Assembly: GCF_040183065.1 (NCBI RefSeq)
Contig: NC_091117.1
Location: forward strand, 121,416,226-121,480,225
DNA from: Periplaneta americana
Taxonomy: Eukaryota > Arthropoda > Insecta > Blattodea > Blattidae
Length of the DNA: 64,000 bases
Reading direction: 5' to 3'
Part shown: positions 7,703 to 64,000 of the stretch, piece by piece
Layout of the letters: each line of letters starts with the position of its first letter
Numbering within the stretch: the stretch's first letter is position 1
Made by a program: the position numbers and the translations under genes
The notes under the pieces: model-generated
The model's input: only the letters and a program-made list of their open reading frames with translations
Database searches by the model: none
What the model was told of the DNA's origin: nothing

Positions 7703-9407
7703 AGATAACTCACGGCAGTATCCAGCAAACTCATGATATAAGCGGAAAGAGAGACAGTCAATTAATAGAAAACAGCGAGCAAATAGAAGGCGTATCCTCC
7801 ATGTTGACCTAATGCAGTAGATAACTCACGGCAGTATCCAGCAAACTCATGATATAAGCTGAAAGAGAGACAGTGAATTAATAGAAAACAGCGAGCAAAT
7901 AGGTGTATCCTCCATGTTGACTTAATACAGTAGATAACTCAGGCAGTATCCAGCAAACTCATGATATAAGCTGAAAGAGAGACAGTGAATTAATAGAAAA
8001 CAGCGAGCAAATAGGTGTATCCTCCATGTTGACTTAATGCAGTAGATAACTCACGGCAGTATCCAGCAAACTCATGATATAAGCTGAAAGAGAGACAGTG
8101 AATTAATAGAAAACAGCGAGCAAATAGGTGTATCCTCCATGTTGACTTAATGCAGTAGATAACTCACGCCAGTATCCAGCAAACTCATGATATAAGCTGA
8201 AAGAGAGACAGTGAATTAATAGAAAACAGCGAGCAAATAGGTGTATCCTCCATGTTGACTTAATGCAGTAGATAACTCACGGCAGTATCCAGCAAACGCA
8301 TGATATAAGCTGAAAGAGAGACAGTGAATTAATAGAAAACAGCGAGCAAATAGGTGTATCCTCCATGTTGACTTAATGCAGTAGATAACTCACGGCAGTA
8401 ACCAGCAAACTAATGATATAAGCTGAAAGAGAGACAGTGAATTAATAGAAAACAGCGAGCAAATAGGTGTATCCTCCATGTTGACTTAATGTAGTAGATA
8501 ACTCACGGCAGTATCCAGCAAACTCATGATATAAGCTGAAAGAGAGACAGTGAATTAATAGAAAACAGCGAGCAAATAGGTGTATCCACCATGTTGACTT
8601 AATGCAGTAGATAACTCACGGCAGTATCCAGCAAACTCATGATATAAGCTGAAAGAGAGACAGTGAATTAATAGAAAACAGCGAGCAAATAGGTGTATCG
8701 TCCATGTTGACTTAATGCAGTAGATAACTCACGGCAGTATCCAGCAAACGCATGATATAAGCTGAAAGAGAGACAGTGAGTTAATAGAAAACAGCGAGCA
8801 AATAGGTGTATCCTCCATGTTGACTTAATGCAGTATATAACTCACGGCAGTATCCAGCAAACTCATGATATAAGCGGAAAGAGAGACAGTGAATTAATAG
8901 AAAACAGCGAGCAAATAGAAGGTGTATCCTCCATGTTGACTTACTGCAGTAGATAACTCACGGCAGTATCCAGCAAACTCATGATATAAGCTGAAAGAGA
9001 GACAGTGAATTAATAGAAAACAGCGAGCAAATAGGTGTATCCTCCATGTTGACTTAATGCAGTAGATAACTCACGGCAGTATCCAGCAAACTCATGATAT
9101 AAGCTGAAAGAGAGACAGTGAATTAATAGAAAACAGCGAGCAAATAGGTGTATCCTCCATGTTGACTTAATGCAGTAGATAACTCACGGCAGTATCCAGC
9201 AAACTCATGATATAAGCTGAAAGAGAGACAGTGAATTAATAGAAAACAGCGAGCAAATACGTGTATCGTCCATGTTGACTTAATGCAGTAGATAACTCAC
9301 GGCAGTATCCAGCAAACTCATGATATAAGCTGAAAGAGAGACAGTGAATTAATAGAAAAAGCGAGCAAATAGGTGTATCCTCCATGTTGACTTAATGCAG
9401 TAGATAG
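7703..9407. repeat. 113-bp tandem satellite (about 15 copies)
   Basis: Units starting AGATAACTCACGGCAGTATC recur at 7703, 7819, 7932, 8044, 8157, 8270 and so on, spaced 112-116 bp. Each contains ATATAAGCTGAAAGAGAGAC, a segment AACAGCGAGCAAATAGG, and TCCTCCATGTTGACTTAATG. Copies differ by only one to a few bases, so the array is young or actively homogenised. The first unit and one near 8920 carry a small AGAAGG insertion and CGGAAAG for CTGAAAG. Every frame is stopped, so it is not coding. Confidence 0.97.
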
Positions 9408-13489: not shown

Positions 13490-14815
13490 TTTCATTGCCA
13501 CTTCAAAATACCAGGAGAACAGGAGGCATATGAGAACGGATGGGATATGAGGGATACTAGAAGAGCACGGGGATTCTAGGAGAACAGGGGGACTACGAGG
13601 GAACAAGGCGGATATAATGACAGCAAGGAGAACAAATGAAAGAGAAGGAAAACAAGGATAATACAAGGAGAACAAGAGTAATACAAGCAGAAGGAGGGGA
13701 AGACGAGGAGAAAATGAGAAGGATGTGGAGAGAAAGGAAAATACGAGGAAAAAAACATGTAATGATAACAAGGAGATGTAAGGAGAATGAGATGAATGAA
13801 AGAAGAAAAATGGGAATAGAGGAAGAAAAAGGGCAATAGAGGGAGTAAAAGGAGTAGAGAAGGAGAATAGGAATGGAAGGAGAACAAAGAAAACCATGGG
13901 AGTACAAGGAGAAAAAGAGTAACACCAGAAACAGGAAAATCCGATGAGAACAAGGGGAATTCAAGTAAAGCAAACAAGGAGAACGAGATAAATACGAGGA
14001 AAATACTGGGAGAACAAGAGGCATAAAATGGATAACAAGGAGACAACCGGAATGCGAGGAGAGCAACCTGGATATATGGATAACATGGGAAATGCAAAAA
14101 GAACGAGCGGGATACATATATAACTATTGGAATACAAGTTGAACAGTGGCAATACAAGGAGAATAGGGAGCAATTCAAGAAGATTAAGTGGAGCACAAGG
14201 AGAACAAGTTGAAGTCTAAAGCGAAGAAGGGAATACTAGGAACAGAAGGTGAATGCAAACAGAAAAATGGGATACAAGAACATGAAAGATAATAGAAGGA
14301 AAACAAGCGGAGTACAGAGATAACTATGAGAATATAAGTCGAACAGAGGGAATATAAGAATAATAGGGACAATTCAAGGTGATTAAGTGGAGTACAAGGA
14401 CAACAAGTTGAAATCTAAGCGAAGACGGGAATACAAGGAGAAAAAGGTGAATGCAAACAGAAAAATGAAATAAATGGAGAAAACGGGGAATACAAGAACA
14501 TAGAGGAGAATGGAAGAGGAATACTAATACACGCAGGGTAAAAATTAGATGAAAATGAGTATACAAGTACAACAACGGGAATAATAGGCGAATTACAGGA
14601 TTACCAGGAAAAATTGGAAATAGAAAGGAAGACGATTACAAGAACAACAAGAGGCATACAGTGAAATCAAGAGGAATGCAAGGAGAATAATTCATTGAAA
14701 GGACATCAAAGGGAATGCTAGGAGTACAAGGGGAGGACAACGAAAACAACAACACAAAGAGAACAAGAGAAAGACAAGTGAAAGGAAAGAAGGTTAACAA
14801 GGCAAATATCGTGGA
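13490..14815. repeat. Diverged purine-rich tandem array, period about 20 bp
   Basis: Degenerate units around AATACAAGGAGAACAAGGGG repeat about every 20 bp, with heavy purine bias on the plus strand. A block near 14150-14290 recurs near 14360-14480 (for example AGAAGGTGAATGCAAACAGA and AAGGTGAATGCAAACAGAAA), so a ~200-bp higher-order period is present. Several overlapping minus-strand frames of up to 206 codons (Ser/Phe/Leu-rich) come from the absence of stops in the repeat and are not genes. The array cuts directly into the 3' end of the piggyBac relic. Confidence 0.85.
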
Positions 14816-16905
14816 AAGCAACGTCACATTTTAGACATGGTTTAGTTGTCTGAGATTTACAAACAGCACACCTTGTTCTCTTTTGCTGAGTGACTATAAT
14901 ATGGCACCTTTCATCAAATCGAACACTTGGTGCTATTCTGCTGCTGACAGACTAGGTCTTGACTTCGGTGTTCCATATTGTCTCTGATAGCCCATTGCGA
15001 TACTTCTACGAAATGACAGAAGATCCATGTCTTCCATATGACTGACTATAGAGAAGCGATGTGTTTTGCACACTGACACCTAACCCCCACAAAAAAAGAC
15101 CACCATCACATTTTGGGACGTATATTTTTTCGATAGGTACTCACATTTTGATCCATGCCATCAGTTCCACCCATATTTATATTGTAATTTGTGATGGCTG
15201 CTGGTTGAGAAATTGCCACATTCTTTTTCTGAGAGCTGGAATTTCTTTGTACGTTACTCACTGGCAGTACACTGTCACAGTTTGACACAAAGTCACAACA
15301 GAATTGTCATTCCAGCGACATATCAGTAATTCAGAACCTTCATCGTACTGCATATAAAAGGAACCGAACCTCTCTGTTTTCTTCATATCAGCCAGATTTG
15401 TTAGTGGACACTTCTGTCCCTGTAAGGCCCATGCCTATTTCTGTGAATCTATCTACAACGTTCAGTGCATTTCTCTAAATGAGGAAAATGAAAATTATGC
15501 ATAGAGTAGGCAACACTGTGAGAGAATAAATCCAGTATTGACGAGGCTATGATAATTTATTTTGGAAGACATGGACTAAAACAATTTATTCTAGGAAAGC
15601 CAATTAGGTTTGGCTACAAAGTTCAGTTTCTCACATAACTTCATCTAGAAAGGGCCTCAGCTTAGACAACCTATCGCTCTTGTCAAGTTGTGTTGCCATT
15701 TAGATGAAGGTTTCTCATCATTTCATCAAATCTATTGCGTCTCATAGCTCTGACTATTGACTAATTTCTTGCGTCACTCCTCTCTTAACTGTATATTCGA
15801 TGGCTTGCGACTTTAGTATATCCACTTACAAGAAGAATCCCAAGGAATGTTTTGAAATCATTTGTGGAAAAACTAAATTTATCCCTACCTTTCTGCACCG
15901 CATAACAAAACTTTGGTTTACAATATCAAGTACAAAATTTTCATGGAAAAATAGCCCAATTGAAAAATATCAATTGGCAATAAGTTCTTTTAATGTTGGG
16001 ATTCGACTCACAATTTTCAATTTCCTCATTTACTTTTCTTTTCAGTTAACAGTAACTTGGTAAATCACTCTTTTTCCATTTTCTTACAATAGTACCTTTA
16101 TCTCCTGACAGGCTCTGATATTTCACGTATTTCTGCACCTTCTGGCATCTATTCATTCTGTGCCTGATTTTATATTATTATATATTTTTCCATATACTGA
16201 GGACCACTATCCCTTCAGTCCCCAGTTGATGACAATTTAGATTATTTATGTTTCCATTGAAGTCCTCGTCATCACTGTCTTCATCGGTATCATTTCTAGC
16301 TTCCGGTGGAGATATGAAAATATCTATAAAATCTGCCTGAATTTTTCGTTCTCTTCCATGATTGTCGTTATTTCATGTACACTCCGACCCCTTGAATATA
16401 AAACATGAATAGAATAACTATTTCATGCTAAAATCGAATTCCATGTGTAAATATACACAATTATTTCACTAATCTCAGAAAGACAATTTTGATATTCCAT
16501 GTGCCCGGTGTTGCGAAAACGCAACACCAACATTCAGGCCCACATTACAGAAGTAACGTTTCATGCAATATCCAGCTACGTTTACAAGAAGTATGCTAAG
16601 AGTCTTTAGATTGTAATATATAAAAGAAAAGATATAATAATATTATAAAAATAAGCAAAAATTACATTCCTTTATGACAAACTGCAGATATTTCAACATT
16701 TGTAATAATCACTTCTTTCCTTCTCAAGTATTGCGCCATCAATGAATCAGTTACCAAATGTTTTCAATAAACCAGGTCTACCAACATCAGTATAATAGAT
16801 AATAAGTGCCATAAACTTAAAAAAATACTAAAAACCATATTTCACACACGTTTAATAGCAAAGAAGTAAAATGTTGCGAAAACGCATCACCGCGATAATA
16901 TGGGT
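14816..16905 (-). pseudogene. piggyBac-like transposase element, degenerate
   Basis: Read on the minus strand, the parts occur in piggyBac order. An acidic N-terminal segment DTDEDSDDEDFNGN (about 16300) comes first. Next is FSFSTNDFKTFLGILLVSGY (about 15880-15820), part of the DDE domain. Then come RWNDNSVVTL (about 15330), YNINMGGTDGMDQNVSTYRK (about 15180-15120) and a C-terminal Cys-rich RCAVC...CLKC (about 14890-14830). The family excises and inserts DNA at TTAA. The 5' end is probably at 16905, next to TTAA (16906-16909), with the expected CCC start. Many stops and frameshifts make it dead. The 3' end is lost in the purine-rich array. Confidence 0.85.
16507..16528. repeat. Perfect hairpin within the piggyBac 5' region
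   Basis: GGTGTTGCG-AAAA-CGCAACACC is a perfect inverted repeat with a 4-base loop. A diverged copy, TGTTGCGAAAACGCATCACC, lies at about 16874, close to the predicted element end. piggyBac ends often carry such internal inverted repeats as transposase-binding sites, so these may be the old binding sites. Confidence 0.6.
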
Positions 16906-16909
16906 TAAA

Positions 16910-18371
16910 CTCTAGTCAATCCTTCACATCACTTTTCATCTATCGGGCTAGGTCTTTCACCTATCTGTTGAAGTATCGCACCTGGCTGAACAAGCTTTCT
17001 GTGGGTATGACGGTGATCCACGTCTATGTGGAAAAAACTGGGAAAATACAACTAATATACGTGTTAAAAAATATCCGCAAATTTCATAACCTCAATAGAA
17101 ATATGAAATAATAAGCAGCTACAAATAAAGTAAAACCACAAATCAACATGCTCTTATATGTATAATTTAAAATCCTTGACTCTCGTCAGGAAGAAGGGGG
17201 TAGACTTCCGACACTTCGTCTGTGCACTGGCCGACATCAGAGTGGCGGAAGATTACCTCGCTACATCTGCAAACATATATATCATATTATCTTACCTGTC
17301 TAAGATGTAGTTCTACCTAGCCTTGCTTGTTGCAGCCCTATGCTCCACATAATACTATACTATCCGAAGATGCGTCTGCACACACAGAATCTAGGCTACT
17401 GTTACCGCACATTAAGTTAATTTAACATGTACAGTATTTCAGCACCACTTCGTAGCAATGCCGTATTGTGTTTTTGGTTCACGAAAAATATAATACGTTG
17501 TTCTAAGGCAGTGGCGGGAGTGAGTTTTCCCATAAAGACGAATATTTTTCGTAAACCAAAAATTCAGCAGGGTTTTTCTAAAAAAGTATGGGTGATGTAC
17601 TACGTATTTACCAATTTAACACTTTACTTTTCGAAACATCAACCAACCACCACTACCAAGAAGACTTGACCGACCGCTTTAACGTTTTATTGCACTACAA
17701 TGATTTCGTTCTGGGGTTTAGATTGAAATATAAGCGCAGCTTATATGATGCTGGCTACTACCGACCCAGCGGCCATAAAGCATTCAGTATTGTTAATACT
17801 CTTAATGAAAAAATAATTAATTGGATTGGAATAAAAAATTGTAAGAGAAATATTACAAATGGAAAACGAAGTACTTTATTAATGTGCTCAACAATCCATT
17901 TACTTTTTTTAATTATTTTTTTGAATAACTTACTACGTTTCATTATTGTGTATGCGGTATTATCACTGAAATGGGGAAGTATAGGGGTAAACCACAGCCA
18001 AAATAAGCGAAAGTGTGTTTCAAGGCTGCAGGCATAATATCATATTCCTGTCCTGACTGCCTACACACTTGAATAGGAAACAAGAATGTAATAATAATTC
18101 GTTTCGAGTTTATTTTATCGTTTATTTTAGCATTATGTTTATTGCCACATTAAAAAGCTAGAGAATTGTGTTTAAATTAATATTCTTCCTTTCTGTAAAG
18201 AACTTAATTCAAATATTTAACAGCAGGTTCTACGAACTGCGACAAATTAACAAGCGGTTTGGACTAACTGGCTGAATGGCTCTACTCCATAAATCTCCTC
18301 TTTGCTACCAGCAATCGAACTTGTGAGCAGCTGGAAGCGCCACCACTTCAGGATATAAACAATTACTTTAC
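16910..18371. other. Interval with an unrecognised 149-codon open frame
   Basis: No transposon ends or known domains seen. The plus-strand frame at 17588-18037 includes a hydrophobic stretch (LLFLIIFLNNLLRFIIV) that is probably chance in AT-rich DNA. I do not call it a gene. Confidence 0.4.
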
Positions 18372-18488
18372 CTTCTTCTTTGGGACGTCTGTCTAAGTGT
18401 GTCATTCTTTTCTGGTGCGGGTAGTACGGGTAGTGACCTGTCATTTTGAGTCTTTCCATCATACCTCTCTCTCTCGCTCTGCGTAAAT
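18372..18488 (-). CDS. Putative phase 1-1 cassette exon (family member 1)
   Basis: On the minus strand, an acceptor-like TTGCATTTTAG precedes this 117-bp segment and a donor-like GAAG|GTAAAG follows. The exon is 39 codons long, enters and leaves in phase 1, and reads ...RRARERGMMERLKMTGHYP and ...HLDRRPKEEG. Intronic sequence on both sides (GTAATTGTTTATATCCTGAAG downstream in sense, the AACAGGATAAATAGG complement upstream) closely matches that around 19192-19275, so the exons are duplicates. I do not recognise the protein. Expression is unproven. Alternative: conserved splice-like edges in a non-coding repeat. Confidence 0.45.
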
Positions 18489-19191: not shown

Positions 19192-19275
19192 CTTCACTGT
19201 TAACTCTGATACGTCTTATTCTTTCCAGGAAGCGTTCTCTCGACGTCATCACCTTCTCTGTCGCTTTGGGTACAT
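19192..19275 (-). CDS. Putative phase 1-1 cassette exon (family member 2)
   Basis: An 84-bp segment with acceptor TTGCATTTTAG| and donor GAAG|GTACAG on the minus strand. It is 28 codons long, phase 1 at both ends, and reads VPKATEKVMTSRERFLERIR then RIRVNSEG. It is homologous in position, phase and flanking intron to 18372-18488 and to the large repeat exon at 25026-26720 (PAEKMKTTAATQTSD at its start against PKATEKVMTSRE here). The function is unknown. The shared phase means inclusion or skipping would not disturb the frame. Confidence 0.5.
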
Positions 19276-23589: not shown

Positions 23590-24850
23590 GGCAACGTTCA
23601 GGAAAGGTTTTTGGAATGTTTAATCAGATAGAACTGCTGGGGGTTTGTATAGCATAATGTGTCAAATCGTAGAAGATCTGGAATGTGGTTGAAGTTAGTA
23701 GCTCAGGGTTATGATGGCGGAGCTGTAGTCTGATCACTTGAGTGGATTGCAGGCTAGAGTAAAACAATTTTTCCTGTGTTTTCTCCATGTTCATTGCTTT
23801 GCTCATCGTCTGAATTTAGTTCTATTTCAGTCGGCTGGGACAATATTTAGATCAAATATAAATATTCTTTCTGTTACTTAATGGCCTTGTTTTATTTTCC
23901 TCCCTGTTTTTTAAGCGAATGCATGCTTTGGATGAACTAGTGAAGAAAATACTTCCGAAGGTGTCTCGGACGAACAGAAATTATAATAGTAGACTGGTAT
24001 AGACTGTTTTAGAATATCGTGAACCATTCATTAGCTGTTCGAAAATATTGTTGAATAAACTGATAATTGGGATTCAGAAACTCTTAATTCTTCAAGAGGA
24101 TACCTTGCTTTGCTGAAGACAGATTTCAATTTTAATTTTGCTTTCGCATATATTTGGAGCAATATTTTCTTTCACAGATATTCTTTTTGGTGTTCTTCAA
24201 AGCAAAACAAATGACATTGTATATTGCATTCAGTAAATTGGTGAATCCAAGACAATTATTGAAGGCAAAAGGGACAGCTTTTCGAATATTTGGAATCGTA
24301 TAAAAATCATATTATGACATTTCAAACCATAGGCTAAGAGGGTCCATATTCATGACATCGGTAGCTTGGAAACATGAAGTCGCAAACTATTTTTTGTAGT
24401 TATTGACAACAACCTTGAACAATTAACTTAAATGTTCAGTAATGTTGACTATCTAAAATTACTGGAACTCACAAATTTCCAAAGCATTACAATGCTCATA
24501 TCCTAAGTGCTTTTGATATACTAACTATTGCTAATTATGTTGTTTCTTTCATGCAGTGACTCTGGGTTTCCAATTATCTGTACTGCTCAGTGTAAAAGAA
24601 AGCATTTGTGCGAGTAGTGTCAATAGCTTCAGTGAGTTGTTGAAATGTATTAAGGAATATAAACTACAGGCGGCCTACTCTGCAGTTGTCAAATTTCGTG
24701 AACTTACACTAACAATTCCTACCACTACTTCCTCTCTATTCTCAAGAGTGTAAAGGCATTTGTGAGAAATTCTATAGGCCAAAAGCGAATCTCACAGTTG
24801 GCAGTTTTGAAATTGAAAAATCATTTATTAAGAAACTGCCACAATAATCT
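23590..24850 (+). pseudogene. hAT-family transposase relic
   Basis: Degenerate plus-strand fragments follow hAT order. AQGYDGGAVVSDHLSGLQAR (about 23705) leads into VHCFAHRLNLVLFQSAG (about 23790), the RNase H-like core region (YDGA...HC.AH.LNL). Near the end, LLKCIKEYKLQAAYS and FRELTLTIPTTTSS (about 24630-24740) are followed by FSRVKAFVRNSIGQKRISQL in shifted frames, the C-terminal hATC dimerisation segment. Multiple stops and frameshifts make it dead. No 8-bp target duplication found. Confidence 0.8.
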
Positions 24851-25025
24851 CGGTTTTACGGTGACGTCATAGACGAGTTAGACAAACAAAACAGGAGAAT
24901 CGTTCTACAGCTTAAATGACAGGTGAGTAGGTAATTTTTTTTTTCTAAATATTAATTGTATTTAGTTACTGCTTCCCTCCTTTGAAATATTAATACTCTC
25001 CAATAATATAAACAATTTACTGTAC

Positions 25026-26720
25026 CTTCAACAGGGCTGGATACGCTCGTCTGTGCGGATGTTGCGTCCTCCTGGATGACTTCAGTCTGTAAGTAGTAGT
25101 CGCTCGTCTTTGTTCCTTCGTCCATCTGTATCACTTCAGTCTGTAAGTAGTGGTCGCTCGTCTGTGTGGATGTTGCGTCCGTCTGGATGATTTCAGTCTG
25201 TAAGTAATGGTCGCTCGTCTTTGTTCCTTCGTCCGTCTGTATCACTTCAGTCTGTAAGTAGTGGTCGCTCGTCTTTGTTCCTTCGTCCGTTTGTATCACT
25301 TCAGTCTGTAAGTAGTGGTCGCTCGTCTTTGTTCCTTCGTCCGTCTGTATCACTTAAGTCTGTAAGTAGTGGTCGCTCGTCTTTGTTCCTTCGTCCGTCT
25401 GTATCACTTCAGTCTGTAAGTAGTGGTCGCTCGTCTTTGTTCCTTTGTCCGTCTGTATCACTTCAGTCTGTAAGTAGTGGTCGCTCGTCTGTGCGGATGT
25501 TGCGTCCATCTGGATGACTTCAGTCTGTAAGTAGTGGTCGCTCGTCTTTGTTTCTTCGTCCGTCTGGATGACTTCAGTCTGTAAGTAGTGATCGTTCGTC
25601 TGTGTGACTACGTCCGTCTGAATGTCTTTGGTCTGCAAGTAATGGTCGCTCGTCTGTGTGCCTGCGTCCGTCTGTATCACTTCGGTCTGTAAGTAGTGGT
25701 CGCTCGTCTGTGTGCCTGCGTCCGTCTGTACCACTTCGGTCCGTAAGTAGTGGTCGCTCGTCTGTGTGCCTGCGTCCGTCTGTATCACTTCGGTCTGTAA
25801 GTAATGGTCGCTCGTCTGTGTGTCTGCGTCCGTCTGTATTACTTCGGTCTGTAAGTTGTGGTCGCTCGTCTGTGTGTCTGCGTCCGTCTGTATCAGTTCG
25901 GTCTGTAAGTAGTGGTCGCTCGTCTGTGTGCCTGCGTCTGTCTGTATCACTTCGGTCTGTAAGTAATGGTCGCTCGTCTGTGTGCCTGCGTCCGTCTGTA
26001 TCACTTCGGTCTGCAAGTAGTGGTCGCTCGTCTGTGTGCCTGCGTCTGTCTGTATCACTTCGGTCTGTAAGTAGTGGTCGCTCGTCTGTGTGCCTGCGTC
26101 TGTCTGTATCAATTCGGTCTGTAAGTAATGGTCGCTCGTCTGTGTGTCTGCGTCCGTCTGTATCACTTCGGTCTGTAAGTAGCGGTCGCTCGTCTGTGTG
26201 TCTGTGTCCGTCTGTATCACTTCGGTCTGTAAGTAGCGATCACTCGTCTGTGTGTCTGCGTCCGTCTGTATCACTTCGGTCTGTAAGTAGTGGTCGCTCG
26301 TCTGTGTGCCTGCGTCCATCTGTATCACTTCGGTCTGTAAGTAGTGGTCGCTCGTCTGTGTGTCTGCGTCCGTCTGTATCACTTCGGTCTGTAAGTAGCG
26401 ATCACTCGTCTGTGTGTCTGCGTCCGTCTGTATCACTTCGGTCTGTAAGTAGTGGTCGCTCGTCTGTGTGCCTGCGTCCGTCTGTATCACTTCGGTCTGT
26501 AAGTAGTGGTCGCTCGTCTGTGTGCCTGCGTCCGTCTGTATCACTTCGGTCTGTAAGTAATGGTCGCTCGTCTGTGTGTCTGCGTCCGCCTGTATCACTT
26601 CGGTTTGTAAGTAGTGGTCGCTCGTTTGAGTGGTTGCGTCCATCTGGATCACTTCGGACTGCAAGCATTGATCGCTCGTCTGCGTCGCTGCGGTCGTCTT
26701 CATCTTCTCTGCTGGTCCAG
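25026..26720 (-). CDS. Large exon of about 31 TQT-motif 18-residue repeats (one internal stop)
   Basis: On the minus strand, acceptor TTGCTTTCAG| and donor GAAG|GTACAG bound 1,695 bp (565 codons), phase 1 at both ends, matching the two small exons at 18372 and 19192. After GPAEKMKTTAA, the protein is about 31 copies of DAGTQTSDHYLQTEVIQT (54 bp; three are 57 bp), ending TSVSSPVEG. Variation between copies is often synonymous (CAC/CAT, ACC/ACT, GAC/GAT), which supports this frame. TQT occurs in about 22 copies and is TKT in most C-terminal ones. TQT is the anchor of dynein light chain LC8 ligands, so a multivalent LC8 ligand is an inference. The protein is low-complexity, acidic, without membrane segments. 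One TAA replaces GAA (about 25354). The protein family is not recognised. Confidence 0.55.
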
Positions 26721-27299
26721 CTGAAAGCAATATTATTCTTGGTTGAAATCGTCGTTATCACACTGATTTCTAGCTAATGACTAGGATGAATAGGGCATAT
26801 TAAGTAAAAATGACAACATATACAATTGGATTAAAATAGAATGGGCCGACACTTGGTAGTTCAAATAGTTTTTAAAGTCAGGTTCACACGAGTAAATTCA
26901 TTTCGTTCGAAGGCAATGCTCTGATGTTTGTTCCGGTTGATTCTTTGATAATGATCCGTCTACAATGTAGGGGTAATGTTTCTGATTTCGGAACCAGAGT
27001 TGTAAGTTCGCTTCCCGGTAGGGATGATTTTTATGTTGTATTATTTTATATGTTTAATGACAAGTGTTAGTGGAATTTGTTAATAAACTTGGTTATGCAA
27101 GTGTTGCAAACATATTATATCCTATTATTTGTGGGCTACTATTAGGCACAACCTGATCAGTATGCAAAATTAATAGTTTGTTTGCCTCCTCAAACATTAG
27201 AAGTACATCAAATATAAATTAACAAAAATTATACAAAAACATATATAAACAAAAAAAAAAGGTCTGTGGTAGGGACTAGTATTTCTCCATAATCCACTT
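26721..27299. other. Interval with intron-like paralogous sequence
   Basis: 26740-26830 matches the upstream intron sequence of the other two cassette exons (for example CATATTAAGTAA). The rest is AT-rich, with a degenerate tRNA-like stretch and a poly-A run near 27250. Confidence 0.5.
26957..27035 (+). other. Degenerate tRNA-like / SINE-head sequence
   Basis: The A-box-like AATGTAGGGGTAATG and a B-box-like GTAAGTTCGCTTCCCGG lie at tRNA-like spacing. No SINE body is evident downstream. Confidence 0.4.
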
Positions 27300-27319
27300 G
27301 CATCAACAACTGCCCTCAT

Positions 27320-28104
27320 TCAGCGCGACATGGAGTCCAAAAGATTACGTAATAGTCTACATCCGTGACCACCTCCTCCCACGCATCTAGTAGCTACTCT
27401 GTTCCATAATTTGTCTGCTGTTCGTAAGGGTGGTTCTGCCCAATTAGAGCGTAAGATCATTTTAAATCTATGCCACACATTTTCAATCGGATTCATATCA
27501 GGTGAAAAATCCAAGGACATTCGAGCATGTCGACATCAGACCTCTTCGTAAACCATCTTTAAATGCGATTGGCGGTGTGTATCTGATGGTTTTCCTGCTG
27601 GAACACAAGTGTTCCGTCTGGATACCATTCTCGGCCGGAAGGAATCATTATATTTGCCAAATTTATTCATTCACATCTGTCGTAAACCGACCATGCATGC
27701 GTTCTAGAGGCTCTGCTCCAATGTTTGACATCGCAACGCTCACGCGACCCGGCCTGTGAAGTCGTCCCACGAACGTTCATTATATCGGTGGTCATCCATA
27801 CGATACACACGGGCAGGACATAAGTGCTACTGAAGACATCTACCTCGTCGGACAAAATGACATTCTCCAGTCGAAGTCCTGCCAAATAGTAGCGTAAGCT
27901 AGAAGGTCCACGACATGATTCATTTTCAAATGTTCTTTCGTCGCAGTTCGACGAGACCTTATGCCATCCTCTCTAAAATGTCTCCTCACGGTTGAAAAGT
28001 TGGACGCCATCTTCAAATCAAAGGCATTTAGAAATATGTGGTTTTCAACTTCTCTGATTAAGATGGCGTCCTCTTACCTTGCAGAGATGCGCGGTCGACC
28101 AGGA
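27320..28104 (-). pseudogene. Tc1-type transposase relic
   Basis: Read on the minus strand from 28104: PGRPRISAR (linker after the HTH), then FSTVRRHFREDGIRSRR (about 27990-27940), LENVILSDEVDVF (about 27870, first catalytic Asp in SDE) and, near the end, LDFSPDMNPIENVWHRFKMI (about 27510-27450), the PDLNPIE-type motif with the last catalytic residue. This is the order of Tc1-family DDE transposases. Stops and frameshifts lie between the blocks. The N-terminal HTH part is missing because a MITE occupies 28105-28347. No TA-flanked ends are visible. Confidence 0.82.
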
Positions 28105-28347
28105 ATTGAAGGATTCAGAACCATAGTGGGCCAAGCGCCATTTATTAAAAACGGTGAAAGCGAGAGTTAAAGTTAAGTGAATACCATAGTTTAATGAATA
28201 TTGAGATATAATTTAATTTTATTATGCATACTTCATATTACTTGCTATATGTTTTCATTGAATTATTGTAATAACTTAGTTTTAACCCTTGTTGTCTACG
28301 TTTTTATTATATGGCTCTTGGCCCATTATGGTTCTGAACCCTTCAAT
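28105..28347. mobile_element. 243-bp MITE with ~75-bp inverted repeats
   Basis: Ends ATTGAAGGATTCAGAACCAT and ATGGTTCTGAACCCTTCAAT are inverted repeats. They continue inward through GGGCCAAG-type sequence to AAAAACG for about 75 bp. It abuts the Tc1 relic and probably interrupted it. A direct target duplication is not clear. Confidence 0.82.
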
Positions 28348-31403: not shown

Positions 31404-31905
31404 TTACTCACCACTATCTTCCCACCTCACTTCTGATATTCTCATCACATCCACTCTGTTTCTTTTCATTACTTCCTTCAAGCTTTCCAACTCACCTGAA
31501 ACGAGAGGCGTTCCAGTAGTCAGTCTTCTTTTCTTCTCTCCTGTAGGCTCCGTCATGAATCGTCCTTCCCCAGTATCCCCCTCCCGGACATCCGATTGGG
31601 GGGATAGTTTACGTCCGGAATTTTTTACCAGGGAATGACTCATCATGCAATCTTAATTCCAATATCTTCTTGGGATATATATAAATGCGGAAGCTTCCCA
31701 TTGCTTTCCGCATACCACTCTCTCTTTCGCATCTTACAAGATCCCAGGGGGCCCCAGCGTGGAGGTGAGGAGAGTGGATTTGACTAATTAGGCCCTCCGG
31801 ACTTCACCGAAATTCACCGCAATGGTTTAAATATCAGTTCCATCAGGGTTTTTGACCCAATCAGAGACTGGGAAATCCCAATTAGCCTTTGCCCCCCTTA
31901 TTGAG
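31404..31905 (-). pseudogene. 5'-end fragment of an RTE-type LINE (endonuclease start)
   Basis: On the minus strand a frame ends ELESLKEVMKRNRVDVMRIS then EVRWEDSGE. This is the beginning of an APE-type endonuclease domain, where the Glu of SEVRW is catalytic. Upstream sequence (to about 31905) is GC-richer and looks like the element's 5' leader. The rest of the endonuclease and the reverse transcriptase are absent here. Confidence 0.72.
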
Positions 31906-34758: not shown

Positions 34759-34853
<95 letters not shown>

Positions 34854-36285
34854 GAGCAATAAGTGGCACATTTATATGTGCTAAAATGTATATTCTATTT
34901 TACTGTATTGTAGGTGAACTGTAAATGTAAACTATCATGCAGCAGCCTTCGACTAGAATATCGAAAAGGACAGTTTAGGCAGTTCCAAGAAATGCGAGAA
35001 TACTCCAAGCAGCAGGCTTATTTGTTTCGACTCATGCATCCCCAGGCCATCAAATGGAGAAGACATGGTAAATATGAGCACCCAGGTGAAAGTAGAAGGC
35101 AGCACTCTTTTCACTACTATCTTCTTCTTCGTGGAGGAAGTGAGGTAAGAATCTGTCTTAAAACATTCTGCAATACATTTGGTATTACTGCAAGAAGAGT
35201 TCTACTAATATGGGAAAAAATTGTAAGAGGTGAAATGGACTGTAAAGATAATAGGCGTGGAGCTCACACAATTCTTAGAAATCAAGGATGGAGAGAGAAG
35301 ATCATGGAACATATAAAGTCTTTCACTACTCTCGAAGCAAGAATCCACAGAAGATGTTCTTATCCCCAGACTTGAATGTAAGCAGGATGTATCGCTCATT
35401 TTTGGAAAAGTATTGTCATGGCGACATGAAGCCTCCAGTTAGTCGTCAGTGGTACAATGAAATTTTCTTAGCGCAATTTAATCTTTCCTTTGCTCGACGA
35501 CGAATAGACGCATGCTCAACTTGTGATCGCCTTACTATGCAAATGAAAACAGGTGATAAGGAAGCTTCTGTTATGAGAGAGTTCCACCATAGACAAGCTG
35601 AAGCAGCCTCAAATGCCATGTCTGCTGATACAGAAAATGCGAATTCGTCTGGACATACCATTGTGATTTCATTTGATATGCAGCAGCAGATGTATCTTCC
35701 AAGTCTGATGCACTCAGAAATGTTACTATTCGTGGCAGATTGCTTGTTGCAACCTTGGTATACATGACGAAGGTACAGGCATGGGAACAATGTGCCTCTG
35801 GATAGAAACTGTAGGAGGTAGAGGATCCCTGGAAGTAGCCCATTGTCTCCACAAATATTTGAGTACACTTACAACAGATAAGAAAAAGCTGATTTTATTG
35901 TCTGATAACTGTGCAAGCCAGAACAAAAATCAGGTATTGATTGCAATGTATATGGCAAATGGTAAATTTAAGGACATTATTCATAAATTTCCGGTAAGAG
36001 GTCACACATCCCTTAGTTGTGACCGTGGCTTGGCCACATAGAGAAGCGAAAACGCAAATGTAAGGCAGATACACACATGAATCTCATGCGTATAATCACA
36101 CAAGCAAGAGTCAAACAACCATTTTCTGTAATGATTCAAGAGAGCTTTACTGATTTCAAAGAATTAGCTCATCAAACACTCGACACAAAAAAATTGAAAA
36201 TTTCAACATTTTCAAAGATAATGCTGAAAGCTGAAACTTTTGGTCAAGTTGCTGTTATCAAAGGTCATGGTGATTTGCAAATGTA
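34430..36285 (+). pseudogene. Broken DDE-like transposase gene of an uncharacterised eukaryotic family
   Basis: Exon 1 (34432-34573) carries MNTDPQNSRKRKR, then DNWRKNQTKRLKDAGKE. A good donor AG|GTAAGA (34574) and acceptor TATTGTAG| (34912) bound an intron that contains a TTA microsatellite. Exon 2 reads NCKCKLSC, an HTH-like CNTFGITARRVLLIWEKI, FPYYSRS-like, LARRRIDACSTCDRL, IVISFDMQQQMYLPSL, LILLSDNCASQNKN (SDNC, likely catalytic Asp) and finally VKQPFSVMIQESFTDFK. The order matches large insect proteins with a DUF7869-type DDE core, which I believe are mobile-element derived. Several frameshifts and stops (exon 1, about 35320, 35755, 36040) make it inactive. Superfamily uncertain. Confidence 0.7.
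34759..34852. repeat. (TTA)n microsatellite
   Basis: About 30 ATT/TTA triplets, inside the predicted intron of the transposase relic. Confidence 0.97.
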
Positions 36286-36726
36286 GGAAAAGACACTTTT
36301 AATACTGAAACCAGGAGTATTGTCCGCGCAACTTATCTAGGCACCTGGGTTCCCTAGTGCTGTCTCACTGCCCCGTAACTATCTGCTGGCTACCTGACGT
36401 TGCTGCAACAGTTGTACGTACAGTTACAAAAACATCATTCGGTACTGTATTTAATTTCAGTGCATTCCATTGGATATGGTAGGTGAAAGTATATGGTTTC
36501 ACAAAATATCAAACATAAATAAATTACATTTTTCTTCTTCTGTGTGCTATACAGTATGATCACAACTCCAATTATTACAATATTCGTATCTGGCCGTGAG
36601 CCGTAAGCGATACGTAAAGTCTTTCAAGTAGAAGCACAGGTCTGTAGTTGTTGGGTTTCCAAAAAGTTCACTTTCACATACAGTCATTATCAATATTCTT
36701 CTTCTTCCTCCTCCTCTTCCCTTCAT

Positions 36727-36727
36727 C

Positions 36728-36770
<43 letters not shown>

Positions 36771-36772
36771 CA
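36727..36772. repeat. (TCA)n microsatellite
   Basis: About 15 TCA triplets. The poly-Met minus-strand frame is a by-product. Confidence 0.95.
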
Positions 36773-36809
36773 GTTATCACTGCTGGTGTCGTCTAGACGT
36801 ATTATAAAA

Positions 36810-37565
36810 TCCATAAATTATTAGGGAAAAGACTTGAAGCAAGTAAAGAGATACGTTTCGAAATAAATCCCGAAAAGACAAAGTATATAATTATGTCTCG
36901 TGACTAGAACATAGTACGAAATGGAAATATAAAAATTGGTAATTTATCCGTTGAAGAGGTGGAAAAATTCAAATACAGCAACAGTAACAAATGTAAATGA
37001 CACTCGGAGGAAATTAAACGCAGAATAAATAGGGGAAATGTCTGCTATTATTAGGTTGAGAAGCTTTTGTCATCCAGTCAACTCTCAAAAAAGCTGAAGT
37101 CAGAATTTATAAAACAGTTAGTATCGGCTGTTCTGTATGGTTGTGAACTTGGACTCTCACTTTGAGAGAGAAACAGAGGTTAAGGGTGTTAGGGAATAAG
37201 GTGCTTAGGAAAATATTTGGGGTTAACAGGGATTAAGTTACAGGAGAGTAGAGAAAGTTACATAACGCAGAACCGGATGCATTTTGTTCTTCACCTGACA
37301 TAATTAGAAACATTAAATCCAGATGTTTGAGATGGGCAGAATATGTAGCACGTATGGGCGAATCCAGAAATGTATATAGACTGTTAGTTGGGATACTGGA
37401 GGGAAAAAGACCTTTGGGGAAGCTGAGACATAGATGGGAGAGTAATATTAAATTGGATTTGAAGAAGGTGGGATATGATTACTGTAGAGACTGGATTCAT
37501 CTTGCTCAGGATAGGGACTGATGGCGGGCTTATGTGAGAGCGGCAGTGAACCTCCGGGTTTATTA
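36810..37565 (+). pseudogene. LINE reverse transcriptase C-terminal fragment (RTE/jockey-like)
   Basis: Scattered frames give FEINPEKTKYIIMSR, GNIKIGNLSVEEVEKFKY, VEEVEK-type strand and EKQRLRVLGNKVLRKIFG. An intact tail follows (37327-37521): RWAEYVARMGESRNVYRLLV, EGKRPLGKLRHRWE and DWIHLAQDRD, ending WRAYVRAAVNLRV across one stop. This tail is common to many insect LINE polymerases. Frameshifts lie upstream near 36990 and 37230. It is 5'-truncated. Confidence 0.82.
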
Positions 37566-37654
37566 AAAGTCGTAAGTAAGACATTTCTCTTTTGCCTCTT
37601 GATCGCAACAACCACTGATCTTATTATCTCCCTCTCCTTACTGTCTATGCTAAA

Positions 37655-37895
37655 TTAAAATTAAATCATGGTTTATTTAACAACGCTCACAACTGCAGAG
37701 GTTATATCAGCGTCGCCAGTGTGCCGGAATTTTGTCCCGCAGGAGTTCTTTTACTTGCGAGTAAATCTACTGACGTGAGCTTATCGCATTTACACACACT
37801 TAAATGCCATCGATCTCGGCCGGGATCGAACCGGCAACCTCGAGTATAGAAGGCGCGTATAACCTTGTTGCATCTCGTATTACTACCGGCTCCAT
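37655..37895 (-). mobile_element. tRNA-derived SINE (minus strand)
   Basis: On the minus strand, from about 37895, an A-box-like region and a canonical B-box in GCCGGTTCGATCCCGGCC (plus complement about 37815-37835) are followed by the body GAGATCGATGGCATTTAAGT, AGAACTCCTGCGGGACAAAA and CGGCACACTGGCGACGCTGA. It ends with GTTGTTAAATAAACCATG. It is a separate family from the two other SINEs. Confidence 0.8.
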
Positions 37896-37899
37896 TCAC

Positions 37900-38516
37900 A
37901 CAATTTTTTTTAAATTTTATTTAATGAAATGAGCCCCAACCCCGCTCATTTCAGTCTCAGGCAGACCACAATTTTACCGAGTCCTTATTTTATTTAGTTT
38001 CTTTATTATCAATTTTTATTTGGTTAAACTATTAATTTACAACTTTATATGATTATTTATTCATTTAATTTATTTATATTTATGAATTTGTTTGTTTAGT
38101 TATGTATGTCCTAGTTTTGATTAAGTACTTGATTTATCTGCTTTTAAATTATTCATTTAACCATTTACTTATTTATTTATTTGATGATTAATCATTTTTT
38201 TAAATATAAAATAATATTGTTTTTTTTATAAGATTGTTTTCATAGTTTTTCTATCACAAAGATATGAGATATCACAGAATACAATTCATTAATTAACAAC
38301 ACAAAACAGAAAAATAAGGTCACTGAACAATTCTATCTTTTCTAAATTACTTACAGTATTGTATTAAAGGAAGAAGATTACGTTTCAGAAAGAGAAAACA
38401 GTAATAACATGGTCATTAATTAAATTAAACACTTCGTTTATAACATTTATGTAATAGAGGATTGTAAACATAAATAGATTAGCTGGGCATAGTGTGTTTG
38501 AATTATTTTACCTTAT
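37900..38516. other. AT-rich interval, probable 3' region of the minus-strand LINE
   Basis: TTTA/ATTT-rich sequence without frames. It may include the 3' untranslated tail of the LINE ending at 38517. Confidence 0.4.
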
Positions 38517-40965
38517 TCATATATAATTCAGTACATTGCCATAAAGTTTTTTCCCGTGTTTCTTATTATAGGCTTTGTACCTCGAACGTTTTAGAATTTC
38601 CATAAATTCTTCCATTTCCATTTCCCTGTTGTAGTCCATTATTAGGAATACTACATTGCTAATGATCCAAATCACAGCATTATGTTTTTGAGATGGTAAA
38701 TAATGAAAGTCAGGTTGCGTAATCATGCTAGGTTATATAGATGTATATGGTGTGTTAAGCCATATACTTATTATATGTTGAATTTTGTGCCAGATTTCCT
38801 TAACTTTGTTACATTCAGTTAAACGATGGGTAACAGTATCTATCTGGGCACATAGAGAGCATAGCATAGTTTGTGATCTTTTTATTTTATATAATCGGAG
38901 GTTCGTTGGATATATATCATGAACAGCTTTAAACCAAGATGTTTTTAGTTTTGCAGGAATCAATTTATTTCTAATATTGATCCACACTCTATTCCAATTA
39001 ACCTGGGGATAGTAAGACATTATTCTCATAGGTTTATCGAACGGGGAAGCGTTACAAATCGTTTCGAGATACAGTTGGTATATTAACCTTGTTGAAATTT
39101 GGTTACCATAGTTTGTGAGTTGTAAACTATTCATACTTTTTAGTATTTGACGTACATAATCAAAGTCTGTATCATTTTTGGTACCGGACTGAAGGGCGTT
39201 TTGGAAGAATGTAAACATTTTAGCTGCTATATTATCCGTCTGTTGTTGTTTTAGGTAACGGGATACTAATAAGGAAGCACATTTAGTTGGAATATGTATG
39301 AAATCTAATCCTCCTTCTTCTCTTCTCTTAATAGCTGTTGAAAGTGGCACCCTAAATATGGCTCATTTCCAGAGATACCATGTGATTGCTGCTTGTAATT
39401 GTCTGGAGTAGTTCATGGGAATTGGTATGACTTGAGCCACATACCATAGGAGAGACAATATATAAGTATTAAGGATTAAGATTCTGTTGTTTAGACAGTT
39501 TTCTCGCGGGTAAGATGTTTGAAGTTTTCCCTTGATCTTTGCTACTATGGGATTCCAATTCAGATCTTGAATTTTATTCCAGTTCGATGACTATATGACA
39601 CCAAGAATCTTTACCTCGTCTGTTGTGAGAAGTGGAGGACAATGGGGTGCATTTTCCCATTTCCCTAGTGGTAGAACACGTGATTTAGAAATATTTATAT
39701 TTAAACCCGAATCTTCTTCAAATTTTTGTAGTATTTGCCACATTCTAGGTATTTCTAAGTCTAGTATTTCTAGTAATATGTTTACATCATCAGCATATGA
39801 CAGTGTCGTTAGACGGGTATTTTGCAAATTTAATCCTGTTAGACTTTGGTGGAGATATTCCAGTAAAGGATTAAGTGCAATTACAAAGAGGGACATGGAT
39901 AAAGGGCAGCCTTGTCGAACTGAACGGTTTATAGCTATCGGCTTGGAATAATGTCCATTAATTTGTAAGATTGATGAGATATTGGTATAGAAGATTTTTA
40001 CCTTTTTTATAAAATTAGTATCAAATCCATATCGTTGAAGTGTATGAAATAGGAAATCATGTAGAATTTTGTCAAATGCTTTTGAGAAATCGACGGAGAT
40101 TAAGAGGCCCTTGTGTCCCAATTTAGTATGGTACGCTAACAGGTCTCTAATGGCATTTGCAGCACCAAAGATTGTTCTTGTTTTAACTCCAGCAAATTGA
40201 GTTTCATGTATGATATCTTGCAGTATTGATTTAAGACGATTATTAACAATTCGGGCTAAGATTTTATAGTCAGTATTTAGTAGGGTAATCGGCCTATAGT
40301 GTTCAGCTGTTTTGGGATGTGGAATCATTTTTATCAGTGCCATTATTCCTTGGCGTCGAGAAGGGCACAACTCTCCTTTCTGAACTATTTCATTTAAGAC
40401 ATGTGTAAATTCATTCCCAAGAATGTCCCAATATTGCTGATAAAATTCATTAGTGATGCCATCCGTTCCGGGTGACTTGTTTGCTTTTCCTTGAAAGACT
40501 GCTATTTGAACTTCCTCTTTTGTGATTGGTGCATTAAGCTGTTTATTTTGTTCAGGTGTGACATACCTTATTGGATTAGGATTAAAAGTTTGAGAAACAT
40601 GTGCAGATTTATCATCAAACATATCGGTAAAGTACCGATGAAAGATAGTAATTATATCCTTTTGTTTACTATATTCCGTTTTTTCATCTTCGATTTTAGT
40701 AACGAAGTGGGAATTGCAGCGTTTTCTTTCCTTTACCAAATGGAAAATGTTCATTTTGTCTTCTTCTTTTGCAGAAATAATTTTACTAGTCACTGTTGTT
40801 CTCTCCATCCTTCTTCTGTATATTGTTCGTATCTGGGCTTTAATATAACTTAACTTTGCTTGCATGGGAGCATACTGAAAATCTGGACTTTGCAAATCAC
40901 GGATACATTGCAATAGAAAATTTAATGTTGTATTCTAATTCCGTTTCCTTTCCAGTCCTCTATAT
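38517..40965 (-). pseudogene. Tx1/L1-like LINE: reverse transcriptase and C-terminus
   Basis: A nearly continuous minus-strand frame runs with only three in-frame stops (about 39591, 39360, 38731). Reverse transcriptase motifs are in order: KANKSPGTDGITNEFYQQYW, HYRPITLLNTDYKILARIV, ISVDFSKAFDKILHDFLFHT, VRQGCPLSMSLFVIALNPLL and the catalytic SYADDVNILL. The tail SWFKAVHDIYPTNLRLYKI, CSLCAQIDTVTHRLTEC and a final RSRYKAYNKKHGKK fit Tx1-clade elements, whose C-terminal Cys/His motif is C-x2-C...H-x4-C. It would copy RNA at a nicked target. A frameshift near 40970 separates it from the endonuclease. Confidence 0.88.
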
Positions 40966-40977
40966 TTGAAGAAAGTA

Positions 40978-41860
40978 CTAATCTGTTTTTTTTTTTACAT
41001 ATCCGTCCCACCAGTTAGTTTCCGTTACGTATTGGGCCTGTTTTCTTATCCATTTTTGCCATTCAATAGTGAAGTCTTCTTTTATTGTAATGTCTCGTAA
41101 CAATTGACTATTGAGTTTCCAAAGTGTTCGTCCACGCGTGATGAAGGAAATAGGAATTTTAATCAACACAATCAAAGCGTTATGATCTGTAAAAGGGGCG
41201 GGAACAATTTCGGAGCTACTGATACTATTTTTTAAATCTGTGGAGACATATATTCTGTCGATACGTGATGCCGACTTGGTAGTGTGATACGTAAATCCCG
41301 CAGTTTTATGCGTCACTCTCCAGACGTCGGTCATATGAAAGTTGTTGATAATGTATTTTAGGGCCGGTGATTTAGGTGTACTACCGGTGCATTCGAGTGA
41401 ATCAAGTACGCAATTGAAATCGCCTCACATAATATATTTATTTTGTAGTTTCGAGAGTAAGTACGTAATATCTATTGTGAAGAACTCTTCACGCAATTTT
41501 CTCTTGCGAGTACCAGAAGGAGCATAAATAGAAAGAAAACGAGTCCCTTGATACTCTCCTAGGATGGCTCTACCAGAAGGGAGTTTTCTATATTTGTCAT
41601 TTCTATACCCTCTTTTACCATTATTGCTGTGGCCTCGTTTGTTTATTCCAATATTGCTGTAGGTATTATATCCATTAATTTGGATTATATCTTCGTCAAC
41701 TACTTCTTGCATGAGGGCTATTTCTATGTCATGAGTATATGAGAAGTGACGGAACATGTCCTTGTTCACTGGTGAATATGATCCACATATGTTAATGGTA
41801 GCAATTTTTCGAACTAAAATGTTAGGGTAGGGGTAATTCATAAGTAGATTGGTACTGATA
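40978..41860 (-). pseudogene. Tx1/L1-like LINE: APE-type endonuclease domain
   Basis: Minus strand: RKIATINICGS (start of fold), IEIALMQEV (catalytic Glu), FLSIYAPSGTRKR, then a TGA replacing Gly just before GDFNCVLD (about 41425), SRIDRIYVS and TDHNALIV (His of the active site). The order and residues match LINE endonucleases that nick target DNA. Besides the stop, the frame is open and is followed by a linker to the polymerase in a shifted frame. The upstream junction is unusual (see 42180-42330). Confidence 0.88.
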
Positions 41861-63900: not shown

Positions 63901-64000
63901 AACACATAGAGTTGACTGGGAAGGCTTAGAGTTGACTGAGATGACATAGAGTGGACTGAGAAGACAAGGAGTACAGTGGGATGACATAGAGTGGACTGAG
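45986..64000. repeat. ~18-kb minisatellite, 20-bp unit, with higher-order repeats; runs off the window
   Basis: About 900 units of TGAGAAGACATAGAGTGGAC. Variable positions are mainly the bases after TGAGA and CAT/CAG (GACATAGAG versus GACAGGGAG). The plus strand is purine-rich. Higher-order structure: ATATGACACAGTGGACTGAG recurs at 52921, ~53636, 54330, 55213, 59901 and 60788, giving periods near 700 and 885 bp. The block with GATGTAACAGAG repeats at 50234 and 57265 (7,031 bp). The block with GAAAAATGTCGAG repeats at 58281 and 61882 (3,601 bp). The minus strand has long Ser/Leu/Val/Tyr frames (up to 447 codons), explained by a stop-free unit. I do not call them genes. Confidence 0.97.

Follow-up and report, generated by a model that had tools for sequence, protein, structure and literature searches.

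A tandemly expanded repeat exon in a heavily duplicated American cockroach gene family: a probable flexible multivalent tether and candidate LC8 ligand

Introduction

Proteins that present many short motifs to the dynein light chain LC8 are the closest described counterparts of the locus analyzed here. PMC6607443 gives LC8 ligands a TQT-like anchor and, at position -3, a residue that is large and frequently Lys or Arg, bulky aromatics being disfavored at -2 and Asp, Glu or Pro favored at +2; PMC3078936 writes the motif as [D/S]-K-X-[T/V/I]-Q-[T/V]-[D/E]. As described in PMC10046861 and PMC6607443, respectively, ASCIZ/ATMIN and Chica carry many TQT-type motifs at short spacing in a chain predicted to be disordered, and the repeat exon described below, exon B, resembles them in these three respects. 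In contrast with both proteins, the units of exon B are nearly identical and stand at a fixed pitch, Lys or Arg at -3 is almost absent, and the cockroach protein has no other known domain, comes so far from one genome and is a candidate binder.

With regard to gene architecture, two families invite comparison. PMC9168663 describes the bicycle genes of aphids, phylloxerids and coccids as a large, fast-evolving insect family in which nearly all internal exons start at codon position 2 and gene structure outlasts sequence, features shared by the cockroach family, in which exons B, C and D of the window and exons 4a and 4b of a related gene on C2 also start at codon position 2. Unlike the cockroach family, bicycle genes are described there as having many micro-exons, CYC motifs and salivary expression; one cockroach exon measures 1.7 kb, and among the four exons placed, in a gene that may be incomplete, and in the translations of exon B and its relatives, we saw neither a micro-exon arrangement nor, by eye, any CYC triplet. 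The micro-exon genes of schistosomes, according to PMC4350168, likewise have symmetrical exons, accelerated evolution and a lineage-restricted distribution; however, they belong to another phylum, are found in secretions and glands at the host interface and consist mostly of very small exons, whereas exon B (1695 nt) contributes most of the coding sequence placed here.

Results and discussion

A minus-strand exon built of 18-residue units

The window, by which we mean the whole 64,000-nucleotide stretch of Periplaneta americana DNA that was analyzed, contains a 54-nt tandem array at positions 25063-26682 whose minus-strand reading is TQTSDHYLQTEVIQTDAG. Segmentation of the surrounding exon B (Table 1) without TQTSD as a landmark yielded 30 units followed by a final truncated AQTSVSS, and the triplets numbered 22 TQT, 7 TKT, 2 AQT, 23 IQT and 28 LQT. 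These figures agree with the about 31 repeats and about 22 TQT sites announced in an earlier note on this DNA; the statement made there that TQT, LQT and IQT occur in nearly every copy suits LQT well, TQT and IQT less so. Across the 13 genomic copies of the exon described below, TQT units form an N-terminal block and TKT or AQT units a C-terminal block, with few exceptions, and the N-terminal block holds 12 to 25 TQT per copy.

Table 1. Positions of exon B, its parts and the neighboring predicted exons and intron segments in the window.
Feature	Position	Strand	Remarks
Exon B	25026..26720	-	1695 nt; both ends in phase 1; 30 units (18-19 aa) and one truncated unit
N-terminal block, 21 consecutive TQT units	25552..26685	-	From the unit string; coordinates counted by hand
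C-terminal block, TKT/AQT units with one TQT unit among them	25042..25551	-	From the unit string; coordinates counted by hand
In-frame stop TAA of the window copy	25354..25356	-	Other 12 copies open
Peptide type of the exon B repeat			TSDHYLQTEVIQTDAG
Predicted exon A	31496..31646	-	ATG to donor CAG/GTGAGT; 151 nt; ends in phase 1
Predicted exon C	19192..19275	-	84 nt; phase 1 at both ends; DVPKATEKVMTSRERFLERIRRIRVNSE
Predicted exon D	18372..18488	-	117 nt; phase 1 at both ends; DLRRARERGMMERLKMTGHYPYYPHQKRMTHLDRRPKEE
Intron end ahead of exon B	26721..26807	-	Resembles those preceding C, D and C2 exons 4a and 4b
Intron start after exon B	24631..25025	-	Stretch 24631-24996 recurrent in the genome
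Interspersed repeat in the predicted A-B intron	26818..28116	-	About 1.3 kb
A slash marks the splice position.

The existence of a minus-strand exon with an 18-residue repeat, as earlier proposed, is backed by the genomic copies, by a processed relative and by common splice flanks. Its frame does read as the repeat; however, in the window copy it is broken by an in-frame TAA that had been missed. This stop falls in the C-terminal block and is preceded by 21 of the 22 TQT sites. Since it spares nearly all of these sites yet removes everything after them, the window copy probably represents a group member that is truncated or in decay.

The donor at 25026 (GAAG/GTACAG) matches the intronless relative L040, and the acceptor at 26720 (AG/CTGGACCAG) resembles the intron ends ahead of other exons of the family. 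We also considered a single-exon gene running from an ATG at 26703 to a stop just past 25026, and rejected it: the relatives and the processed copy show a splice at this place, and the supposed stop is intronic.

Thirteen copies and a mildly constrained reading frame

Exon B recurs in 13 copies, five on C1 (the contig that holds the window), four on C9 and two each on C12 and C51, which sit in segmental duplications whose upstream flanks are 96-99% alike in the rows compared. Unit number varies from 20 to 37 per copy. The exon lengths of all 13 are multiples of three, without any frameshift, and 12 are open, the window copy being the one with a stop. Long open frames alone prove little here, because the period is a multiple of three, and openness is further weakened as an argument by the youth of the copies, whose flanks are mostly 96-99% alike. 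Indeed, three of the six frames of the consensus lack a stop. Over the 6,943 codons of the 13 arrays we counted one stop in the repeat frame versus 170 and 88 in the other two consensus-open frames, many of which represent a single change multiplied by repeat turnover; the three frames with a consensus stop held 325, 346 and 434.

We then considered distinct types of change, using the 382 units of 18 or 19 residues obtained from the 13 copies without TQTSD as a landmark (cutting at TQTSD had merged or omitted units, giving 362, with 317 of one length and 357 used). The 84 types comprised 24 synonymous changes, 59 non-synonymous changes and one stop. Synonymous changes exceeded the 19.8 expected, a value as high being reached in 189 of 4000 simulations with random placement, and the single stop compares with 4.4 expected (31 of 4000 simulations as low). 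Neither a synonymous excess nor a depletion of stops was found in the other two frames of the minus strand. The comparison among frames that the earlier note had set as a check thus came out in its favor, with the excess in the repeat frame only, but its description of the variation as mainly synonymous does not hold, since 59 of the 84 change types alter the protein. Constraint on the repeat frame is present but mild, as also indicated by an omega-like ratio across units of 0.76. Furthermore, the flanks show 57 extra alleles in 975 columns and about five indels, a divergence that by hand calculation predicts five to seven stops and five to nine indels in the exon, where one stop and no frameshift were seen. 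Taken together, the repeat exon is very probably coding.

These counts bear on the alternative that the array is a decaying minisatellite, carried along in segmental duplications and not translated into a useful protein. The premature stop of the window copy, the ease with which a period divisible by three yields open frames, and the last 80 nt of exon B, which vary more than the flanks (see below), all speak for this alternative, which we nevertheless regard as unlikely: the repeat frame holds one stop versus 170 and 88 in frames that are equally open in the consensus, no frameshift occurs among 13 copies, and homology bounded by splice sites ties the exon to a family with an intronless, open relative.

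Predicted exons around the repeat

Using the intronless relative as a guide, we placed three further exons, A, C and D, which together with exon B are predicted to be parts of the window gene; the splice from A to B is itself a prediction. Exons B, C and D have lengths divisible by three and start and end in phase 1, and exon A ends in phase 1. The start of exon A matches exon 1 of the relatives, but its 3' part does not; the whole exon was found in L013 (100%) and in the C9 unit (98.7%) among five sources searched. The window yielded no match to exon 3 or to the last (tail) exon of the C2 gene.

The intron end ahead of exon B is 73.7% identical to a piece of the C2 sequence (17941-18038). More generally, similar sequences close the introns that precede B, C, D and C2 exons 4a and 4b, and most intron starts are alike too; this likeness supports the acceptor at 26720. 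Exon B starts like exon 2 of the relatives (AGPAEKMKTTAATQTS) and ends like exon 1 (EVIQ..., SS..EG), and roughly the first 35 residues of exon 2 have no counterpart in it. In the C2 gene itself, exon 2 has an acceptor that looks different and is placed more 5', suggesting that the window exon lost, or never had, that part. The interspersed repeat in the predicted A-B intron matches many chromosomes at 77-84% identity (40 of 6658 candidates scored).

A large family with a processed copy

Stretch 24631-24996, just downstream of exon B, occurs at 85-89% identity in at least 27 further places (40 of 368 candidates scored). In four of the five recurrences examined (L032, L033, L034 and L036), short exons of the exon-1 type (...EERRWTDAATQAPEVIQKTHAATQTEESSISEG) lie beside it, and two of these four also show exon 2 (...SGPAEKIMTEAATQTSCQNLYVEPAVIVLTQASTQTME...); no intact exon was seen at the fifth recurrence, L035, nor at L031, a 75% match near the window. 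An exon-2 query gave 72 genomic matches, six of them with stops, and an exon-1 query at least 106 (150 of 288 candidates scored), roughly 17 of which are cross-matches to exon 2. These numbers suggest a family of the order of about 70-100 exon loci, with clusters on C2, C3, C4, C6 and elsewhere. A subfamily of exon 1 on C4, C6, C8 and C9 (L034, L049-L053 and L056) reads like KKKMDAATQVPEVIEKKDAWTQTE, with a Trp ahead of TQT, and the first Thr of TQT is Met in two of its rows.

The intronless relative L040, on C6, is open over 358 residues counted from the first Met. It matches, in this order, exon 1, exon 2, exon 3 (which starts AYNP) and two short exons of the C2 gene, whose last exon can be matched to it by eye, and it sets the donor position after ...SE/G, the place that corresponds to 25026. 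Its product ends in a Lys/Glu-rich stretch followed by a hydrophobic tail, CGIFFKLFCCCLYVYCFPVLLAFCFY, and gave no convincing match in Pfam or the Protein Data Bank. L040 looks like a processed copy, which would mean that an mRNA of this kind once existed in spliced form in the germ line and was copied back into the genome there.

The presence of dozens of identically scoring loci on many chromosomes could also indicate that the family travels as cargo of a mobile element and is no ordinary gene family. The multi-exon structure, large introns, tandem clusters and processed copy, found in the part of the loci that was read, argue against such cargo and make it very unlikely. We consider, with somewhat better than even confidence, that exon B is a coding exon enlarged by tandem repetition and that it belongs to a multi-exon gene family which is lineage-specific and heavily duplicated in the American cockroach. 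On sequence grounds, the short exons of the relatives share with it both their ends and their TQT motifs.

Introns more conserved than exons between distant members

Compared with the C2 gene, intron stretches of the window are 85-89% identical with 0-40 gapped columns, whereas exon C matches at 43 of 75 aligned bases (30 gapped columns) and exon D at 45 of 108 (nine gapped columns), identity falling from the splice borders onward. Introns are clearly far more conserved than exons relative to this distant member. Exon C and its C2 counterpart may also be different exons inside similar introns, so that either exchange or diversification could lie behind the difference.

Between young copies, the evidence for faster exon change is mixed. 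Relative to the C9 unit, exons A, C and D differ at 9 of 352 bases versus 18 of 2390 flanking bases (p 0.005), but the four changes in exon D fall in one short run and, when these are counted once, the difference shrinks to 6 of 352 (p 0.11). At the edges of exon B in the 13 copies we found 21 extra alleles in 170 bases against the 57 in 975 flanking columns (p 0.004), an excess that comes from the last 80 nt (14, p 0.0005) and not from the first 90 nt (7, p 0.48); all these p values are rough, because the copies share ancestry and the repeats convert one another. The edges of exon B, which are at least as variable as its flanks, do not suggest strong purifying selection.

A bolder reading, which we put forward only tentatively and think doubtful, is that near-constant phase-1 introns act as sockets, the exons seated in them being diversified or exchanged much faster than the introns themselves, with one such exon having swollen into a tunable array of 20 to 37 motif units, possibly for LC8. 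Even if LC8 proves to be the wrong partner, there would still be a large insect family without a known domain whose introns are more conserved than its exons between distant members, a pattern that elsewhere accompanies fast-evolving interface proteins.

A probable disordered, acidic and multivalent product

Read from its own ATG, exon B encodes proteins with a pI of about 4 and a net charge of -67 to -113 in the 13 copies, and charge-hydropathy predicts disorder in 13 of 13, so that on this method the motifs lie in a disordered stretch. The product would be a long, disordered, acidic chain showing the same short motifs many times, with unit number setting the valency. Exons of this kind lie at the N-terminal end of the intronless relative's protein, whose other end is a hydrophobic tail, and on this ground the chain would probably serve at a membrane, as a tether that is flexible and multivalent. 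Overall, a disordered, acidic and multivalent tether is the most likely product.

Eighteen residues make one turn of some beta-helices. A folded beta-solenoid, in which the three xQT stretches of each unit would form one coil, fits the 18-residue unit with its three xQT[E/D/S] stretches and is favored by the retention of Leu 8 in 380 and Ile 13 in 379 of the 382 units. We judge it quite unlikely in view of the disorder predicted for every copy and of the uneven spacing of the xQT triplets (7, 5 and 6).

TQ clusters are known as sites of ATM/ATR-type kinases. A phosphorylation platform of this kind, with 12 to 25 TQ per protein, seems extremely unlikely, as no SQ occurs in any of the 13 proteins and the Gln is replaced by Lys in 90 of the 382 units, mostly in the C-terminal block.

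LC8 as a candidate partner

The flexible tether preferred here could have LC8 as its partner, and the strongest version of this proposal is a true LC8 scaffold: TQT sites, VIQTD sites or both would hold LC8 dimers that zip two chains together, ladder-like, in the manner of ASCIZ, and the number of units would tune occupancy. The genome does contain LC8-type light-chain genes (PF01221, 103.5 bits at C14). Anchor triplets of the form [T/V/I]Q[T/V] are abundant in the 382 units, with 247 TQT and 276 IQT; one or the other is intact in 320 units and both are in 203. With a pitch of 18, neighboring 8-residue motifs are separated by about 10 residues, a constant spacing that would suit a ladder, in a chain that charge-hydropathy takes as disordered.

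The flanks of the TQT sites are less favorable. Nearly all have Ala at -3 and Ser at +2 and fail the published preferences, and Lys or Arg at -3 is found at 0 to 2 sites per protein, as anticipated by the earlier remark that the canonical Lys is missing. The LQTE sites have Tyr at -2 and Leu at -1. In contrast, VIQTD, which had been overlooked, has Glu at -3, Val at -2 and Asp at +2 and fails only Lys/Arg at -3 among the rules applied, its Glu passing since the size limit was set just below Val. VIQTD fits the published rules better than the TQT sites do, and in our reading it is as good a candidate anchor. Its Gln is kept in 376 of 382 units, with Thr at +1 in 283, whereas the Gln of TQT is kept in 289 and is Lys in 90, a loss of the anchor that weighs against a scaffold based on TQT.

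Among peptides typed from Table 1 of PMC6607443, our soft rules passed 7 of 11 binders and 1 of 15 non-binders, an in-sample result, as the rules come from the same data. A small residue at -3 occurs in 3 of the 11 typed binders versus 10 of the 15 typed non-binders, and many TQT peptides of that table do not bind LC8, a point that the paper emphasizes; on the other hand, it lists as a binder the CAPRIN2 peptide TTASTQTP, with Ala at -3 and Ser at -2. The corresponding ASTQT is kept in 17 of 20 fetched exon-2 relatives (the rest being one ASTQI, one cut short and one lost), and the second TQT in 11 of 20 exon-1 relatives.

Chance and common descent also enter the balance. Shuffling the residues of one unit produced TQT in 12.8% of cases and two [T/V/I]QT anchors in only 1.2%. 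At the DNA level, one 11-nt sub-repeat underlies all three xQT of a unit (0 of 300 mononucleotide shuffles as high); a common origin can explain how many there are, without any special selection. A special constraint on TQTSD (p 0.003) proved to be an artefact of cutting at TQTSD-like strings, as unbiased cutting gives p 0.06.

On balance, LC8 binding by the repeat is possible and would probably be weak at each site. The full scaffold with its zipped chains remains a minority reading, if the leading one among the rivals to the tether, and LC8, weakly held through TQT or VIQTD sites, is tentatively the most plausible single partner that can be named. If this step is true, the 13 natural variants, alike in sequence and pitch but with 20 to 37 units, would form a ladder for relating valency to hub assembly, a test that ASCIZ, with its unequal motifs and linkers, cannot offer cleanly.

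Database searches and the rest of the window

Searches for a known family or structure gave no convincing match for the repeat or its relatives. In Pfam and NCBIfam only the VQ motif scored above its cut-off; it was dismissed as low-complexity noise, no stretch passing alone. Matches to the repeat in the Protein Data Bank were weak (best E 0.022) and mostly to fluorescent proteins. No relatives of the repeat appeared among phages, viral contigs or prokaryote genomes at the thresholds used. In the open-licence literature the string TSDHYLQTE occurs in no paper, and no description of the cockroach family was found among the matches listed.

Weak matches in the genome at L021-L024, L027 and L028 were set aside as simple or unrelated tandem repeats, as far as examined. 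Three further weak matches to the repeat (22-31% identity), C1:17541017-17544153, C17:114964897-114969939 and C17:130622377-130623705, lie in open frames of 895 to 1820 codons and may represent other long repeat proteins or minisatellites.

Within 15000-46000 no Rfam family reached its gathering score, and on the minus strand at 13.0-25.1 and 26.7-38.7 kb the only other domain was a remnant of a piggyBac-type transposase (DDE_Tnp_1_7, E 8.7e-8) at 15680-15901, with coordinates set by hand. A broken LINE occupies 38733-41424 on the minus strand, with zf-RVT, reverse transcriptase and endonuclease matches in separate frames, and a plus-strand open frame at 35709-36041 has a DUF7869 match just under the cut-off. 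A minisatellite lies on the minus strand at 13551-14700; the C2 gene has a similar array after its last exon, and a stretch resembling it by eye follows the processed copy L040. The window further contains a 74-bp tandem repeat of 36 copies at 803-3463 and a 113-bp tandem repeat of 15 copies at 97% at 7703-9406, part of which recurs in the C9 tandem unit, next to sequence that matches window positions 34783-38824. Finally, a 20-bp satellite of about 905 copies (TGGACTGAGAAGACATAGAG) fills 46001-64000 and runs to the end of the window.
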